Source: Billgrantia tianxiuensis (GTDB lineage Bacteria; Pseudomonadota; Gammaproteobacteria; Pseudomonadales; Halomonadaceae). From it: 64,000 nt of DNA. Within the stretch, counting starts at the first letter, position 1, and every line of letters begins with the position of its first letter. A model generated the notes under the pieces. It saw nothing but the letters and a program-made list of their open reading frames with translations. It did not search any database and was not told the DNA's origin. Made by a program: the position numbers and the translations under genes. The stretch covers positions 1,612,001-1,676,000 of the forward strand of contig NZ_CP035042.1 of assembly GCF_009834345.1 (NCBI RefSeq), in the 5' to 3' direction. Of the stretch, positions 3,297-9,656 are shown piece after piece.

Positions 3297-3992
3297 ATGG
3301 AAGCGCTGCGTCAGATCGCCCTGAGTTTTCCCGTCGTCGTCTTCAGCGCGCTGCTGCCATTGGTGTTGCTCTATTGGCTGCTGGTGTTGCTGCGCCTGGC
3401 GCCGCTGGAGCTATTCGCTCGTGACAGCCTGAAGGGCGACCACCTGGCGAGTACCATGGTGGCTCTTGGCTTCGCCGGGGTGCCGGTCTCCTTTGCCCTC
3501 AGCGTGCTGCTGGGGCTGGCTGGGGCGGTGACCCTGACGGTAGAGCTGCTGGTGCTGCGCTGGCTGCCACTGGGGCTGTTTCGCATCCCGGTCGGGGTGG
3601 CGGTGCTATGGGCGGCATTCGTGCTTGCCTCTCCTGTGGCGGCGATGGTGTGCCACGGGGTGCAGCGGCGCTTCCATCGGGCGAAGCATGCCCAGCCGCG
3701 TTGCCTGTTGGGAGAAACCGTGCAGGTAGATAACGCAGCCGATGCCGAAGGCTGGGCCACGGCTACCCTGATCGAGGACCCTGAATGCGAAGTGCGCTTG
3801 CATGCCAAGCCCGGCGACCTGCCACGCCCAGGCGAACGACGGGTACTGGTCAAGTACGTGGCCGGGGAGGACGCCTACCGCAGCGTGGCGGAGAGCCGCT
3901 ACTGCGAGGCGCGCGTGTACCTGCGGCGGCTGCGCTTGGCGCAAAGCGGTAGAGCCGGCGCGAGCCATAAAGGCGCCGAGGCGCCCCTGTAA
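3297..3992 (+). CDS. Inner-membrane protein with C-terminal OB-fold-like domain (YqiJ-like), function unknown
   Basis: About 231 residues. The ATG at 3297 is preceded by AAGGAGG with five bases of spacing, which is why it is preferred over an in-frame GTG at 3270. The N-terminal half has three or four strongly hydrophobic segments (residues about 5-30, 55-80, 85-125). The second half is soluble, starts around residue 135 and has the beta-rich pattern of an OB/NfeD-like fold (LLGETVQVDNA, later ERRVLVKYV). This organisation resembles E. coli YqiJ, which accompanies flotillin-like proteins, but no flotillin gene is seen here. Its upstream region is the MITE, and it converges on the TetR gene with an 8-base gap. 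The family link is from memory of domain layout. Confidence 0.7.
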   Translation: MEALRQIALSFPVVVFSALLPLVLLYWLLVLLRLAPLELFARDSLKGDHLASTMVALGFAGVPVSFALSVLLGLAGAVTLTVELLVLRWLPLGLFRIPVGVAVLWAAFVLASPVAAMVCHGVQRRFHRAKHAQPRCLLGETVQVDNAADAEGWATATLIEDPECEVRLHAKPGDLPRPGERRVLVKYVAGEDAYRSVAESRYCEARVYLRRLRLAQSGRAGASHKGAEAPL

Positions 3993-5845: not shown

Positions 5846-6871
5846 TCAGGCGGTTTCGACCTGGCGCGCGCAGCTCTCCGGCACCAGGCTCAGGGCATCG
5901 TCGTATACCCGCAGGCAGGCGCCGTCGAGATGGCCGTTCTCGGAGAGGTGGCGGCGGAAGCGACGCCCGCCCGGCTGGCCCTGGAACAGGCCCAGCAGGT
6001 GGCGGGTCACGTGGTTGAGCTTGGCGCCTTCTTCGAGCCGGCGGGCGATGTAGGGGCGGAAGGCGCGGGCGGCGGCGTGGCGGCTCACGGCGGGCCCGGG
6101 CTCGCCGTAGAGCGCCTGGTCCACCCCGGCGAGCAGCCAGGGGTTCTGGTAGGCCTCGCGACCGACCATCACGCTGTCCACGTGACTCAGCTGCTTGCGG
6201 CATTCGTCGAGCGTCTTGATGCCGCCGTTGATGCCGATGTGCAGCTCCGGGCGGCTGGCCTTCAGCCGGTGCACGCGGGGATAGTTGAGCGGCGGGATGT
6301 CGCGATTCTCCTTCGGCGAGAGCCCTTGCAGCCACGCCTTGCGCGCATGCACGATGAACACCTCGCAGCCGGCATCCGCCACCTGGGCGATGAAGCGCTC
6401 CAAATCGGCATCTTCGTCCTGATCGTCGATACCGATGCGGCACTTCACCGTGACCGGGATCTTTACCGCCTCGCGCATGGCGCGTACCGCTGCTGCCACC
6501 TTATCCGGGTGGCCCATCAGACAGGCGCCGATCATGTTGTTCTGCACCCGGTCGCTGGGACAGCCGACGTTGAGGTTCACCTCGTCATAGCCCCATTCCT
6601 CGGCAATCGCCGCGCACTCCGCCAGCTCGCCTGGATCGCTACCGCCCAGCTGCAGTGCAATGGGATGCTCCACCTCGTCATAACCGAGGAAGCGCTCGCG
6701 AGGGCTGCCATGCAGGATGGCGCCCGTCGTCACCATCTCGGTGTAGAGCAGTGCCTGGCGGGTGAGGGTGCGGGCGAAGGCTCTTTGGTCCCTCGTCGTC
6801 CAGTCCATCATGGGGGCCACCGAAAACCGGCGCGCCCGTGCCAGCGGGTCGTTTCCAGTCGTGTTGCTCAT
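5846..6871 (-). CDS. dusA: tRNA-dihydrouridine(20/20a) synthase DusA
   Basis: A 341-residue FMN- and NADPH-dependent enzyme that reduces uridine 20/20a in the tRNA D-loop. An FMN-binding TIM barrel is seen from the N-terminus (RFSVAPMMDWTTRDQR), with the active-site cysteine motif NLNVGCPSDRVQNN near residue 100 and GINGGI, MVGREAYQNPW in the second half, followed by the helical tRNA-binding domain. The early AYQNP and long N-terminal YTEMVTTGA segments are those of the DusA subgroup rather than DusB or DusC. The gene is monocistronic and faces the zinc hydrolase. The sequence is intact. Confidence 0.95.
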   Translation of the reverse strand: MSNTTGNDPLARARRFSVAPMMDWTTRDQRAFARTLTRQALLYTEMVTTGAILHGSPRERFLGYDEVEHPIALQLGGSDPGELAECAAIAEEWGYDEVNLNVGCPSDRVQNNMIGACLMGHPDKVAAAVRAMREAVKIPVTVKCRIGIDDQDEDADLERFIAQVADAGCEVFIVHARKAWLQGLSPKENRDIPPLNYPRVHRLKASRPELHIGINGGIKTLDECRKQLSHVDSVMVGREAYQNPWLLAGVDQALYGEPGPAVSRHAAARAFRPYIARRLEEGAKLNHVTRHLLGLFQGQPGGRRFRRHLSENGHLDGACLRVYDDALSLVPESCARQVETA

Positions 6872-7226: not shown

Positions 7227-7424
7227 CTACTTCCGCTTCCTCATGAACGGGAGCACTTTGGCCATGGCATCCGCGAGCACCTGGTCGAGCGGTTTGTGCT
7301 CCAGGCTGATGGCGGCTCGCGCGGCGGTATAGGTTCCTTTGTACTCCCGGGCGATTTCGCTGTCGCTCATGCTGTCGGGTAGCTGCTCCTTCTCGCGGAT
7401 GACGTCGATGACGGCCTTGTCCAT
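7227..7424 (-). CDS. Small hypothetical protein, 65 residues
   Basis: The protein begins MDKAVIDVIREKEQLP and is mostly charged and helical, ending in a basic FMRKRK tail. It has no signal peptide or membrane segment. GGAGG with a five-base spacer supports the ATG at 7424; in-frame ATGs upstream (7436, 7445) have weaker ribosome sites. The middle (DSMSDSEIAREYKGTYTAARAAISLE) has a helix-turn-helix flavour but is too short to assign. No family recognised. It has its own downstream terminator and lies next to the sRNA array. Confidence 0.6.
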   Translation of the reverse strand: MDKAVIDVIREKEQLPDSMSDSEIAREYKGTYTAARAAISLEHKPLDQVLADAMAKVLPFMRKRK

Positions 7425-7630
7425 GTTGTCCTCCATTGAAGCCATTCCCTTCGAGCGTAGTGCATATCGCCAGGCCGCGGCAGGGCATCCCTCATAGGTG
7501 CGATAGGCCACGCTGCCGCTCGGCGTCGATCAGATCGGGCTGCCTTACGCCGCCTTGCTGATGAGCAGCCTTGCGACAGATACGCTGCAGAGTATGGTCG
7601 GAAGGGCTGGCCCAGCCGGCAAGGTGCTCA

Positions 7631-7648
7631 CGTAAGCTATCTCGTACA
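7631..7648 (+). promoter_or_regulatory. GacA-type upstream activating sequence candidate for RNA 1
   Basis: CGTAAG-CTATCT-CGTACA matches the GacA/UvrY box TGTAAG-N6-CTTACA at 10 of 12 positions, with the correct 6-base spacer. It is centred about 87 bases before the inferred start of the first GGA-rich RNA. A poor -35 and a TATCTT -10 at 7714-7719 fit an activator-dependent promoter. Confidence 0.6.
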
Positions 7649-7726
7649 AACGCGAGGCGGATCTCTTACCGCGTTTGATATCCTGGGTTAAACCGCTTTT
7701 CTGCAGAAGCGACTATCTTGGTGTTG

Positions 7727-7861
7727 ACGGACGAGGGAGAGTCCGACAGGGAAGACGAGCGACGGAGCGCTCAGAACCAAGGATGCTTGGGCAGGAAGCC
7801 CGAGGTTGGTTGATAAGGATGCGTTGATTGGAAGCCCGGCCTCAGTGGCCGGGCTTTTTTC
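7727..7861 (+). ncRNA. CsrB/RsmZ-like CsrA-sponge RNA, copy 1
   Basis: About 135 nt with eight GGA motifs. Several lie in hairpin loops: AGCG-ACGGAG-CGCT (7758-7771), CCAAG-GATG-CTTGG (7777-7790) and GGGC-AGGAA-GCCC (7789-7801), the last being a standard CsrA/RsmA-binding loop. The terminator stem AGCCCGGCC / GGCCGGGCT (7833-7855) is followed by TTTTT. The 5' end is inferred from the -10 TATCTT at 7714. There is no reading frame of interest. CsrB, RsmY and RsmZ family RNAs work by sequestering the translational regulator CsrA/RsmA. Assignment rests on motif density, loop placement and terminator; there is no primary-sequence alignment behind it. Confidence 0.8.
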
Positions 7862-8048
7862 TGTAGGCCGCTTTCTGCTTCTGCGGTACAGCCCATTATG
7901 CGAAGTGGCGCCCTTCGGCCGTGATCGTCAGGATCAAGGGAAGCGTCGATGGAAGGCCCTGGGCAGGGATGCTCTGGACTTCAAAACGATCGATCGTTCA
8001 GCTCCGGCGTTCCGTTACGCTTTGGAACACTCCTTTTCCTAAGTTTCC
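7862..8048 (+). other. Spacer between RNA 1 and RNA 2 with an extra GGA cluster
   Basis: No gene. Five GGA motifs fall between 7929 and 7980 (CAGGATC, AGGGAAG, ATGGAAG, CAGGGATG, CTGGAC), followed by an imperfect GTTCC...GGAAC hairpin and CTCCTTTTCC. It may be a decayed or unrecognised fifth copy, or leader sequence; no clear promoter is seen for it. Confidence 0.4.
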
Positions 8049-8076
8049 TTGATATGGGGTGAGGCCGAACTATCCT
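8049..8076 (+). promoter_or_regulatory. Sigma-70-type promoter of RNA 2
   Basis: TTGATA (8049-8054), a 16-base spacer, then TATCCT (8071-8076). Transcription would start near 8083, exactly where the GGA-rich region begins. No GacA box is seen upstream. Confidence 0.6.
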
Positions 8077-8082
8077 GAAGAC

Positions 8083-8269
8083 GTACACAAGGCATGGAAG
8101 CTTCAAGGCAGGACGCCTTGCTGGGCGGGAAGCCCGACGGAAGGAACAGGGAAGGCCGCGCGAGACAGGATGTCACTTTGGCCAGGGAGTTCCAGAAGTC
8201 ATTTTAGTCTTCGACCCTCGTGGGTGTGATACGAAAGCCCCCTTGCCCAGGCAAGGGGGCTGTCTTTTT
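8083..8269 (+). ncRNA. CsrB/RsmZ-like CsrA-sponge RNA, copy 2
   Basis: About 187 nt, the longest of the four, with eight GGA motifs. Loop-displayed sites include CAAGGC-AGGAC-GCCTTG (8104-8120, perfect 6-bp stem), GGGC-GGGAA-GCCC (8123-8135) and GAC-AGGAT-GTC (8164-8174). The terminator is a perfect 12-bp stem AGCCCCCTTGCC / GGCAAGGGGGCT (8236-8261) followed by GTCTTTTT. The GGGC-N5-GCCC loop is shared with copy 1. The 3' third before the terminator lacks GGA and may hold a different structure. Confidence 0.8.
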
Positions 8270-8390
8270 CCGACTCATGACCATCAGACCTATACGAGAG
8301 GAGACATCGGATTGGCGGAAGGCTGACCGTAACCGGTAGCGCCTGACGATACTGCTATTCACTCTCATGTCGCATTCGTATTACAGCTCC

Positions 8391-8408
8391 TATCGGCGAT
8401 TTCTTACA
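8391..8408 (+). promoter_or_regulatory. Partial GacA-type box upstream of RNA 3
   Basis: TATCGG-CGATTT-CTTACA has a perfect right half-site of the TGTAAG-N6-CTTACA box and a poor left half (3 of 6). It is centred about 66 bases before the inferred start of copy 3. Confidence 0.4.
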
Positions 8409-8464
8409 AACCAAAGCGTCAAAGGTAGCTTTTTTTTCTCTCCCGATCTGTCAAGATTTGCCTG

Positions 8465-8598
8465 GTCGAGCCAGGGAGGCTCCTAAGGAAGAAGGCGCCA
8501 GGAAGGCTTGGTATTCAGGGAGTTGTGGAAGGGATGCCGAGCGGTGTGGAGGGAGTCGGAAAGAGCCCGGCTATATAGCCGGGCTTGCCTCTTTCTTC
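8465..8598 (+). ncRNA. CsrB/RsmZ-like CsrA-sponge RNA, copy 3
   Basis: About 130 nt with nine GGA motifs, the highest density of the set. The first hairpin is GAGCC-AGGGA-GGCTC (8468-8482); another GGA lies in GCC-AGGAA-GGC (8497-8507). The terminator stem AGCCCGGCTA / TAGCCGGGCT (8564-8585) is followed by a weaker pyrimidine tract, TGCCTCTTTCTT. The 5' end is uncertain: no good -10 is seen, and the start is placed just before the first hairpin. Confidence 0.76.
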
Positions 8599-8781
8599 GT
8601 GTAACCTACTGAAGCGATGGGAAAAATCATTGCAGGAGCAGGTTGGTTGAACGTCGAGGCTACTCTATTCGGCAATGCTGCGGTGGAAAGGCCTAGGGGT
8701 ATTGATAAAAGCTTTTGCCCTATAGCAGTCCATGAATTTTGAACATTTGCCATGCTGCTTACCTGGCACTAAGGTGATCAA

Positions 8782-8918
8782 CATCTCGCAAGGATGCGGG
8801 GAAGATGGAACGCCGAGCAGAGGAGGCTCGATGACGCCAAGGATGCATGACAGGATGTCATGGTGAGCTGGAAAGGAACCAAGGTTTGAGGCCCGGCCGT
8901 GTGCCGGGCTTTCTTTTT
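8782..8918 (+). ncRNA. CsrB/RsmZ-like CsrA-sponge RNA, copy 4
   Basis: About 137 nt with eight GGA motifs. Loop-displayed sites are CGCA-AGGA-TGCG (8787-8798), GAGC-AGAGGAG-GCTC (8815-8829) and CATGAC-AGGAT-GTCATG (8846-8862, 6-bp stem). The terminator is GCCCGGC-CGTGT-GCCGGGC (8891-8909) then TTTCTTTTT. A possible promoter is TTGCCA (8747) with a 17-base spacer to TAAGGT (8770). Four successive units of the same architecture on the same strand argue for repeated duplication of one ancestral sponge RNA. Confidence 0.8.
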
Positions 8919-9323
8919 GTCTGTGTTTTTGTTGCAAACTCCCTTCGCTCGGTATGATCTCGTAAGCAAGTTGTTTCGGAGTGGTGGCATCTTGAATGCC
9001 TGAGTAACTTTGGGAATGGTTCCTATACAAAAATTTAACTCAGATTGATTTGCTTGTCCTCTCTCGGTGGCACTGTGGAGTGAATACCGGGACGGCTGGT
9101 GGCCAGGGAAACATGGCTAGCCAAGCACCCGCAGGCGATCGAAGCAGTCGGGCAGCATCCCGTGAGCGGTCGTAGCCTCTTGCTTGTTCGCTATTGGCAC
9201 GGCCGGGAGTCACTCCTCTGTCTCGGATATGAGAGGCCTGTGCCAATCAAGCTTCCCCCGGTGAGTGCCCACACGCTCCATGTGCTATGTAGAAAGAACA
9301 AGCGCATTCTCTGGAGGTGGGTA
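8919..9323. other. Intergenic region before the DksA-like gene
   Basis: No convincing feature is seen. It is AT-richer near 9028-9052. An open frame continuing the DksA-like gene upstream to 9099 lacks a ribosome site and family-like sequence, so it is not taken as coding. Confidence 0.5.
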
Positions 9324-9656
9324 ATGGAACAGCGTCAGGAGCTGCTCGAAACTCTGCGCGATGAGCTGATCGAGCGCGTGGACCGCTACAAGGTGCACAA
9401 GATGCGCCTCGAAAACCCTCTCGATCGGGACATGGAAGAGCAAGCCATCGAACTCGAGAATGAAGATGTGATCGATGCCCTGGAGGACGAGGCGGAAGAG
9501 GAGCTGCGTCAGGTCATGCATGCGCTCGAGCGTATCGAGGAGGGTGAAGGCGAGCTGTGTGAGCGCTGTGGCGAGCCGATCGATGCCCGTCGCCTCGAGG
9601 TAATTCCCTACGCCACGCTTTGTCTCGACTGCGCCGAATCGGAGGGCGAGCCCTAG
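9324..9656 (+). CDS. Small DksA/TraR-family C4 zinc-finger protein
   Basis: A 110-residue protein. Residues 1-75 are a long acidic and amphipathic helical region (MEQRQELLETLRDELIER at the start), and residues 80-105 hold a four-cysteine zinc finger, CERCGEPI ... CLDC, diagnostic of the DksA/TraR family. Members bind the RNA polymerase secondary channel and modulate initiation. It is shorter than canonical DksA (about 150 residues) and the coiled-coil tip acidic pair cannot be placed with confidence, so it is a paralogue rather than housekeeping DksA. GGAGG upstream of ATG 9324 fixes the start. It lies directly downstream of the sRNA array on the same strand. Confidence 0.88.
   Translation: MEQRQELLETLRDELIERVDRYKVHKMRLENPLDRDMEEQAIELENEDVIDALEDEAEEELRQVMHALERIEEGEGELCERCGEPIDARRLEVIPYATLCLDCAESEGEP

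Follow-up and report, generated by a model that had tools for sequence, protein, structure and literature searches.

The block upstream of a small dksA-like gene in the halophile Billgrantia tianxiuensis very probably encodes, judging from sequence comparison, four separately terminated small RNAs of the Csr/Rsm type that act as CsrA sponges, and these RNAs are best read as a new RNA family and as an extreme form of a type already known. The window, by which we mean the whole 64,000-nt stretch that was analysed, covers positions 1612001-1676000 of a one-contig 5.0-Mb genome (G000:C1), and the nearest named relatives at the array locus are Billgrantia species. The array is flanked by dusA (5846-6871, minus strand) on one side and by a small dksA/traR-type zinc-finger gene (9324-9656, plus strand) on the other; a 94-codon open reading frame with no Pfam match (7227-7511, minus strand) sits between dusA and the first unit, u1. 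DksA influences csrB/C transcription in E. coli, and the presence of a dksA/traR-type neighbour downstream of the array may be meaningful.

Four plus-strand units of about 135-190 nt each lie head to tail in 7727-8920, with gaps of about 185-220 nt. Three models were used to score such units: R1, trained on u1 and units of other genomes, with only one unit from this genome; R2, trained on 39 units, comprising seven of this genome and units of G053, G059, G038, G050 and G012, among others; and R3, which includes u2. The units and their terminators are:

7727-7862, plus strand, sponge RNA unit u1: 8 GGA; 116 bits with R2 (model includes u1); fold z -3.55
7832-7856, plus strand, intrinsic terminator of u1
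about 8083-8270, plus strand, sponge RNA unit u2: 8 GGA; 132 bits with R3 (model includes u2)
8233-8264, plus strand, intrinsic terminator of u2
about 8455-8597, plus strand, sponge RNA unit u3: 9 GGA; 44.4 bits with R1 at 8466-8592 (u3 not in model)
8563-8586, plus strand, terminator-like stem of u3 with a weak U-tract
8783-8920, plus strand, sponge RNA unit u4: 8 GGA; 51.6 bits with R1 (u4 not in model)
8889-8911, plus strand, intrinsic terminator of u4

The preliminary description had placed four same-strand, GGA-rich units in this block, and this is borne out by 8, 8, 9 and 8 GGA motifs, 33 in total; the three stem-loops that it quoted are all present. Its claim that each unit ends in its own terminator holds for u1, u2 and u4, and for u3 as a stem followed by a poor U-tract. 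Spacers included, the block 7727-8918 contains 45 GGA and 13 TCC and is the plus-strand GGA maximum among stretches of equal length in the 64-kb window, where no minus-strand stretch of that length matches it. Orthologues of u4 differ by single-base indels, which argues against coding, and by sequence the units have the form of non-coding sRNA genes with intrinsic terminators.

Are the GGA motifs presented in hairpin loops, as the preliminary description had it? We counted GGA in loops closed by at least four Watson-Crick pairs, against shuffles that preserve the GGAs. Four such motifs occur in u1 (reached by 0/500 shuffles), three in u4 (5/500), two in u2 (34/500) and one in u3 (133/500, not significant). 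Unpaired probability exceeds 0.5 for 20 of the 33 GGA motifs; in u2 this is true of only three of eight, and u2 is indistinguishable from its shuffles. Fold energies compared with shuffles are lowest for u1 (z as listed above), followed by u3 (z -1.89), part of u2 (z -1.54) and u4 (z -0.82, with 38/200 shuffles folding as well). The hallmark of such RNAs, many GGA motifs with several in hairpin loops, is thus present, clearly in u1 and u4 and weakly in u2 and u3.

Covariation points the same way. When 11 u1-type units are aligned with MAFFT, eight of the 23 pairs show changes in both partners (0/500 shuffles), five of them among the seven pairs of the central GGA hairpin, the four-helix structure having been drawn from the same 11 sequences that were tested. 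When the alignment is widened to 39 units of various types, both partners have changed in 17 of the 23 pairs (0/500 shuffles; 3-7 in slid controls) and 96.5% of cells pair (22-46% in slid controls), in an alignment that was fitted to the structure model and so leans towards it. Taken alone, u2 has three covarying pairs (210/500 shuffles as good) and u3 two (44/500), both weak. In a nested fold of u2, two AGGGA segments face each other inside GGAAC/GTTCC and GGCC/GGCC pairings, and one pair of this fold is kept through a double change in three of eight sequences.

The genome encodes both protein partners expected of such a system: one CsrA of canonical sequence, and one protein above the cut-off of the UvrY model, taken as the GacA/UvrY orthologue, a cut-off that 1 of 14 control genomes passes too. 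Together with covariation, the GGA presentation of u1 and u4 and the upstream boxes described below, their presence supports well the CsrA-sponge reading offered from the sequence earlier. The unit RNAs would bind CsrA through GGA motifs in hairpin loops and in single-stranded linkers, and the bound CsrA would be drawn away from its mRNA targets. CsrB, RsmY and RsmZ sequester CsrA from mRNA targets likewise. The GacA/UvrY response regulator probably switches on u1 and u3, u2 and u4 probably have other inputs, and all of these RNAs, with four further units elsewhere in the genome, would feed one CsrA pool. Transcription, GacA binding, CsrA binding and the summing of inputs are what we infer from these features.

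In describing the units as CsrB/RsmZ-like, the preliminary description was right as to function and not as to family. At gathering level, an Rfam search of the window found two tRNAs and no Csr/Rsm family, and the Csr/Rsm families, CsrB, PrrB-RsmZ and RsmX among them, were likewise absent at threshold from 18 further loci that contain relatives of the units. RsmY (RF00195) of Pseudomonas, to which u1 and u4 come closest in Rfam, scores 25.5 bits for u1, 24.5 for u4 and 13.1 for u2 against a gathering score of 57, so the units fall outside that family. They are like RsmY in length, in GGA-in-loop hairpins, in the terminator and, for some units, in a GacA-type box; they differ in scoring far under its gathering score, in being multi-copy and in forming arrays.

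Other bacteria usually have two or three such RNAs, and larger or clustered sets are known. In Pseudomonas, rsmX-1 and rsmX-2 are neighbouring Rsm genes in tandem, each with a GacA site, and rsmX-2 is GacA-dependent and functional; they form pairs of 75-85% identity, whereas here four to six diverged units have differing upstream elements (PMC7911923). The large, multi-copy, Gac-dependent set of Azotobacter vinelandii comprises eight genes, RsmZ1-7 and RsmY (nine names in one place of PMC11330419), compared with 14-20 model matches in four of the genomes here (PMC12923157, PMC11330419). Vibrio tasmaniensis CsrB1-4 also combine several sponges with differing regulation, csrB1 being independent of VarS/VarA; there are four copies, the part of the report available to us describes no tandem array, and it places csrB3 next to csrB2 in Aliivibrio salmonicida (PMC6262261). 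Pf1-Pf3 of Pseudoalteromonas fuliginea are new Csr sRNAs likewise spotted by GGA motifs, promoters and terminators, with 25, 21 and 9 GGA motifs in three genes (PMC11882849). No Halomonas Csr sRNA is described in the available parts of PMC11882849, PMC12889724 and PMC13414033, and among the papers listed, from a collection with few subscription journals, none reports these RNAs or a tandem cluster larger than a pair.

The earlier count of four stands for the window; beyond its borders, the genome carries at least four further units. Besides u1 (116.5 bits), R1 finds six units in this genome at 44-102 bits, the next match being at 22 bits: u4 (51.6 bits), u3 (44.4 bits), two on the minus strand at 161155-161290 (101.5 bits) and 167774-167910 (96.8 bits), together with a pair at 1737324-1737472 (93.8 bits) and 1737922-1738053 (94.3 bits). 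With u2, which R3 finds, the total is eight.

How old is the array? The synteny search proposed earlier, upstream of the dksA-like gene, found the same arrangement in close relatives, where the number of units is frequently higher. There are five at L032 and L034 and six at L035; six in B. bachuensis (L054, same contig as G041) and B. lactosivorans (L053); five in B. antri (L055) and B. saliphila (L063); three, at a contig end, in B. kenyensis (L056); two in B. zhangzhouensis (L103); and one each in B. pellis (L060) and H. alkalisoli (L058). Identity with B. zhangzhouensis is 92-93% over u3 and u4, and the compared stretch of that genome shows neither u1 nor u2. R2 was run on 48 loci around dksA-like genes, and eight of them have a unit of at least 43 bits, seven in Billgrantia and one in H. 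alkalisoli. Of the GGA-rich clusters before the dksA-like gene of more distant Halomonas, six were inspected by eye and set aside as belonging to different, apparently coding sequence that has no strong terminators. A further unit lies downstream of u4 in B. lactosivorans (L053:4004-4133, 43 bits), with a GTTAACTCAGGTTAA promoter block, and weaker matches occur at L054 and L060.

Counterparts in different species are more alike than the four window units are among themselves. Beyond GGA motifs, hairpin layout and terminator the four types have little in common, and their local similarity can be no better than that of shuffles (21/200 as good for u1-u3, 81/200 for u2-u3). In a FastTree phylogeny built from 39 units, clades that span species are formed by u3 (support 0.98) and by u4 (1.0), so those duplications predate the species. 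From the likeness of orthologues and the tree it follows that the array formed before these species diverged and that its make-up varies through gains and losses; on this sequence evidence it is old, and unit divergence together with the tree rules out recent amplification. The earlier proposal that sponge dosage was amplified by duplication therefore survives only in part, for u3 and u4 as old events; common descent of u2 with the other units finds no support, since its local similarity to u3 is within the range of shuffles and R2 scores it at only 17 bits. The spacer 7863-8075, with its GGA motifs and faint likeness to an extra unit of relatives, may be a decayed fifth unit: 2/300 shuffles score as well against L032, 0/300 against L034 (for a match outside the L034 unit) and 8-102/300 against four other references.

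Upstream of the units we looked for TGTAAG-N6-CTTACA, which we take to be the GacA-type box consensus, as at known rsm genes, and for other conserved elements:

7631-7648, plus strand, GacA-box-like site of u1 (CGTAAG-CTATCT-CGTACA), two mismatches to consensus, 96 nt before u1
7665-7670, plus strand, CTTACC, right half of a possible second, proximal u1 site, weak on its own
7679-7691, plus strand, TATCCTGGGTTAA, conserved block near -45 of u1-type promoters, aligned across relatives
8049-8076, plus strand, sigma-70-like promoter of u2 by sequence (TTGATA, 16 nt, TATCCT)
8368-8385, plus strand, degenerate distal GacA-type site of u3, right half ATTACA; GTATTAC conserved in orthologues
8391-8408, plus strand, proximal GacA-type site of u3 (TATCGG-CGATTT-CTTACA), three mismatches
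8701-8719, plus strand, ATTGATAAAAGCTTTTGCC, conserved palindrome-containing element upstream of u4, from orthologue comparison

At the position of the u1 box, the orthologues L033, L035, L055 and L032 have 0 or 1 mismatch, and the CTTACC half-site agrees in position with the -73/-74 sites of other units. The proximal u3 site of orthologues has 2-3 mismatches and lies at -74/-75. No GacA box was seen upstream of u2 or u4: u2 has sigma-70-like hexamers, mostly kept in orthologues (L063 departs), and u4 has AAGCTTT, which occurs at -82 in eight of nine u4-type units in a set of 57 upstream regions, the exception being L037. The AAAAGCTTT element (8701-8719) is kept upstream of u4 orthologues. 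In the same 57 regions, which are related sequences and not independent tests, a GacA-type box with at most three mismatches lies at about -73 or about -96 in 26 units, against 0.6% in shuffles, and at other positions in two, against 4.8% expected; GGTTAA-type blocks were counted 20 times at -41 to -45. Perfect boxes precede three units in the orthologue box comparison and three in G180, and by eye, as most -10/-35 assignments were made, several units seem to carry both GacA-type sites, 22-24 nt apart. The window as a whole is not enriched, with 8 box-like matches at such mismatch counts against 6.4 expected, and the boxes of this array have 2-3 mismatches, so that only position and conservation speak for them. 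Upstream regions are conserved separately for each unit type. The units are likely to have separate inputs, through GacA-like boxes at u1 and u3 and other conserved elements at u2 and u4, and these distinct regions lend support to the separate control of each copy that had been suggested.

The compared copies in this genome have only 125-192 nt in common, that is, the unit and part of its promoter. In G053 and G059 some copies share sequence beyond the unit, up to 694 nt (L157 and L159), and L152 and L153 have 652 plus 436 nt in common. Among 40 dispersed loci tested, a gene or gene piece for SRAP (SOS response associated peptidase) occurs in seven, and one of umuC type in six; no SRAP, umuC-type or IS110 transposase match occurs in the window. 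Units beside SRAP and/or umuC-type genes or pieces are those of L152, L157, L159, L160, L162, L164, L166 and L191. Pfam backs these assignments in L152 and L160, and L160 also has an IS110 transposase. Pieces of a group II intron (L157:1511-1588 and 3480-3628) lie near one dispersed copy in G059, where some copies are close to contig ends. A guanidine-II riboswitch match (L119:2077-2127) lies close to one of the units of G116. Larger or mobile segments may account for part of the spread of the copies. A phage or plasmid origin was discarded: u1 has no match among 72,556 plasmid records, nor the array among 50,697 phage records.

Might the units instead be modules of one long CsrB-like RNA, read through partly efficient terminators? 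Their head-to-tail layout on one strand with short gaps and the weak U-tract of u3 would suit a single transcript, as would two overlapping pairs in G180 whose first unit, by eye, has no intact terminator, so that fused units seem to exist. We nevertheless consider this improbable, since there is a terminator at every unit, upstream regions are kept by unit type, GacA-type boxes stand at a fixed distance from single units, and many units in other genomes are solitary. Less probable again is that the RNAs work chiefly through pairing to mRNAs, their GGA motifs being incidental or mimics of Shine-Dalgarno sequences. Pyrimidine stretches are conceivable partners for GGA-rich loops, but the loops retain their GGA as the stems undergo compensatory changes, the unit types share little besides the features named above, and the GacA-type boxes are like those of known rsm genes.

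The dispersed copies raise the further question of whether the units are a repeat or mobile passenger without a regulatory role. Copies at several genome sites, the long shared flanks in G059 and G053, the SRAP, umuC-type, IS110 transposase and group II intron pieces nearby and the contig-end positions in G059 would all fit such an element, which is nonetheless the least credible of these explanations and barely tenable: the short shared segments in this genome, the covariation and promoter conservation, the lack of plasmid (u1) or phage (array) matches and the old orthologous positions all speak against it. The preferred reading is that of CsrA sponges encoded by separate genes.

How widespread are these sponges? 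Of 275 genomes of the bacterial family, scored on 12 candidates per genome so that counts are lower bounds, 146 have a match at E <=0.001, and in 137 of these it is below 1e-8. When R2 was run on 369 genomes of the class (9 candidates scored per genome), nothing outside the family exceeded 39.8 bits; the matches there (43 genomes, up to 39.8 bits) were treated as noise, and those of 26-40 bits inside the family call for the same caution. Twenty genomes picked for high counts have 7-20 R2 matches at E <=0.001: 20 in G180, 17 in G185, 17 in G190, 14 in G053, 12 in G041, 11 each in G012, G050 and G169, and 7 in this genome. Units of G053, G059, G038, G050, G012 and this genome are in the R2 training set, so their matches are partly by construction; none of G180, G185, G190 and G169 are. 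In G180, 19 of the 20 matches exceed 46 bits, and among the 20 are two overlapping pairs that resemble fusions, which leaves about 18 separate units with each pair counted once; R3 adds four matches outside these 20, three at 48-57 bits, on a scale whose noise level was measured for R2 only. By these models, copy number ranges from none, through one to four in many genomes, to about twenty, and genomes with no model match may have sponges of another type.

CsrA is present in one copy in 29 of 33 genomes examined, in three copies each in G180 and G185 and in two each in G190 and G226. In both G180 (L186, G180:C12:20918-21065, minus strand) and G185 (G185:C23:226840-226984), a unit lies divergently beside two csrA paralogues; a GacA-type box free of mismatches stands at -95 of the L186 unit. 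With about even confidence, we propose that some Halomonadaceae have the largest known sponge set, of up to about twenty genes, partly in tandem and with at least three kinds of promoter, whose many signals would be summed in one CsrA pool; that csrA was duplicated, with a divergent sponge beside paralogues, in some of the most expanded genomes; and that part of the dispersed copies spread with SOS genes (SRAP, umuC). In Halomonas anticariensis, Gac governs quorum sensing and exopolysaccharide, and the available part of the source lists the CsrA-binding RNA partner as unknown (PMC7366521). Candidate CsrA-binding RNA partners are now at hand for half of the family genomes searched (137/275, best E <1e-8), with sponge copies of up to about twenty set against, in most genomes examined, a single CsrA.
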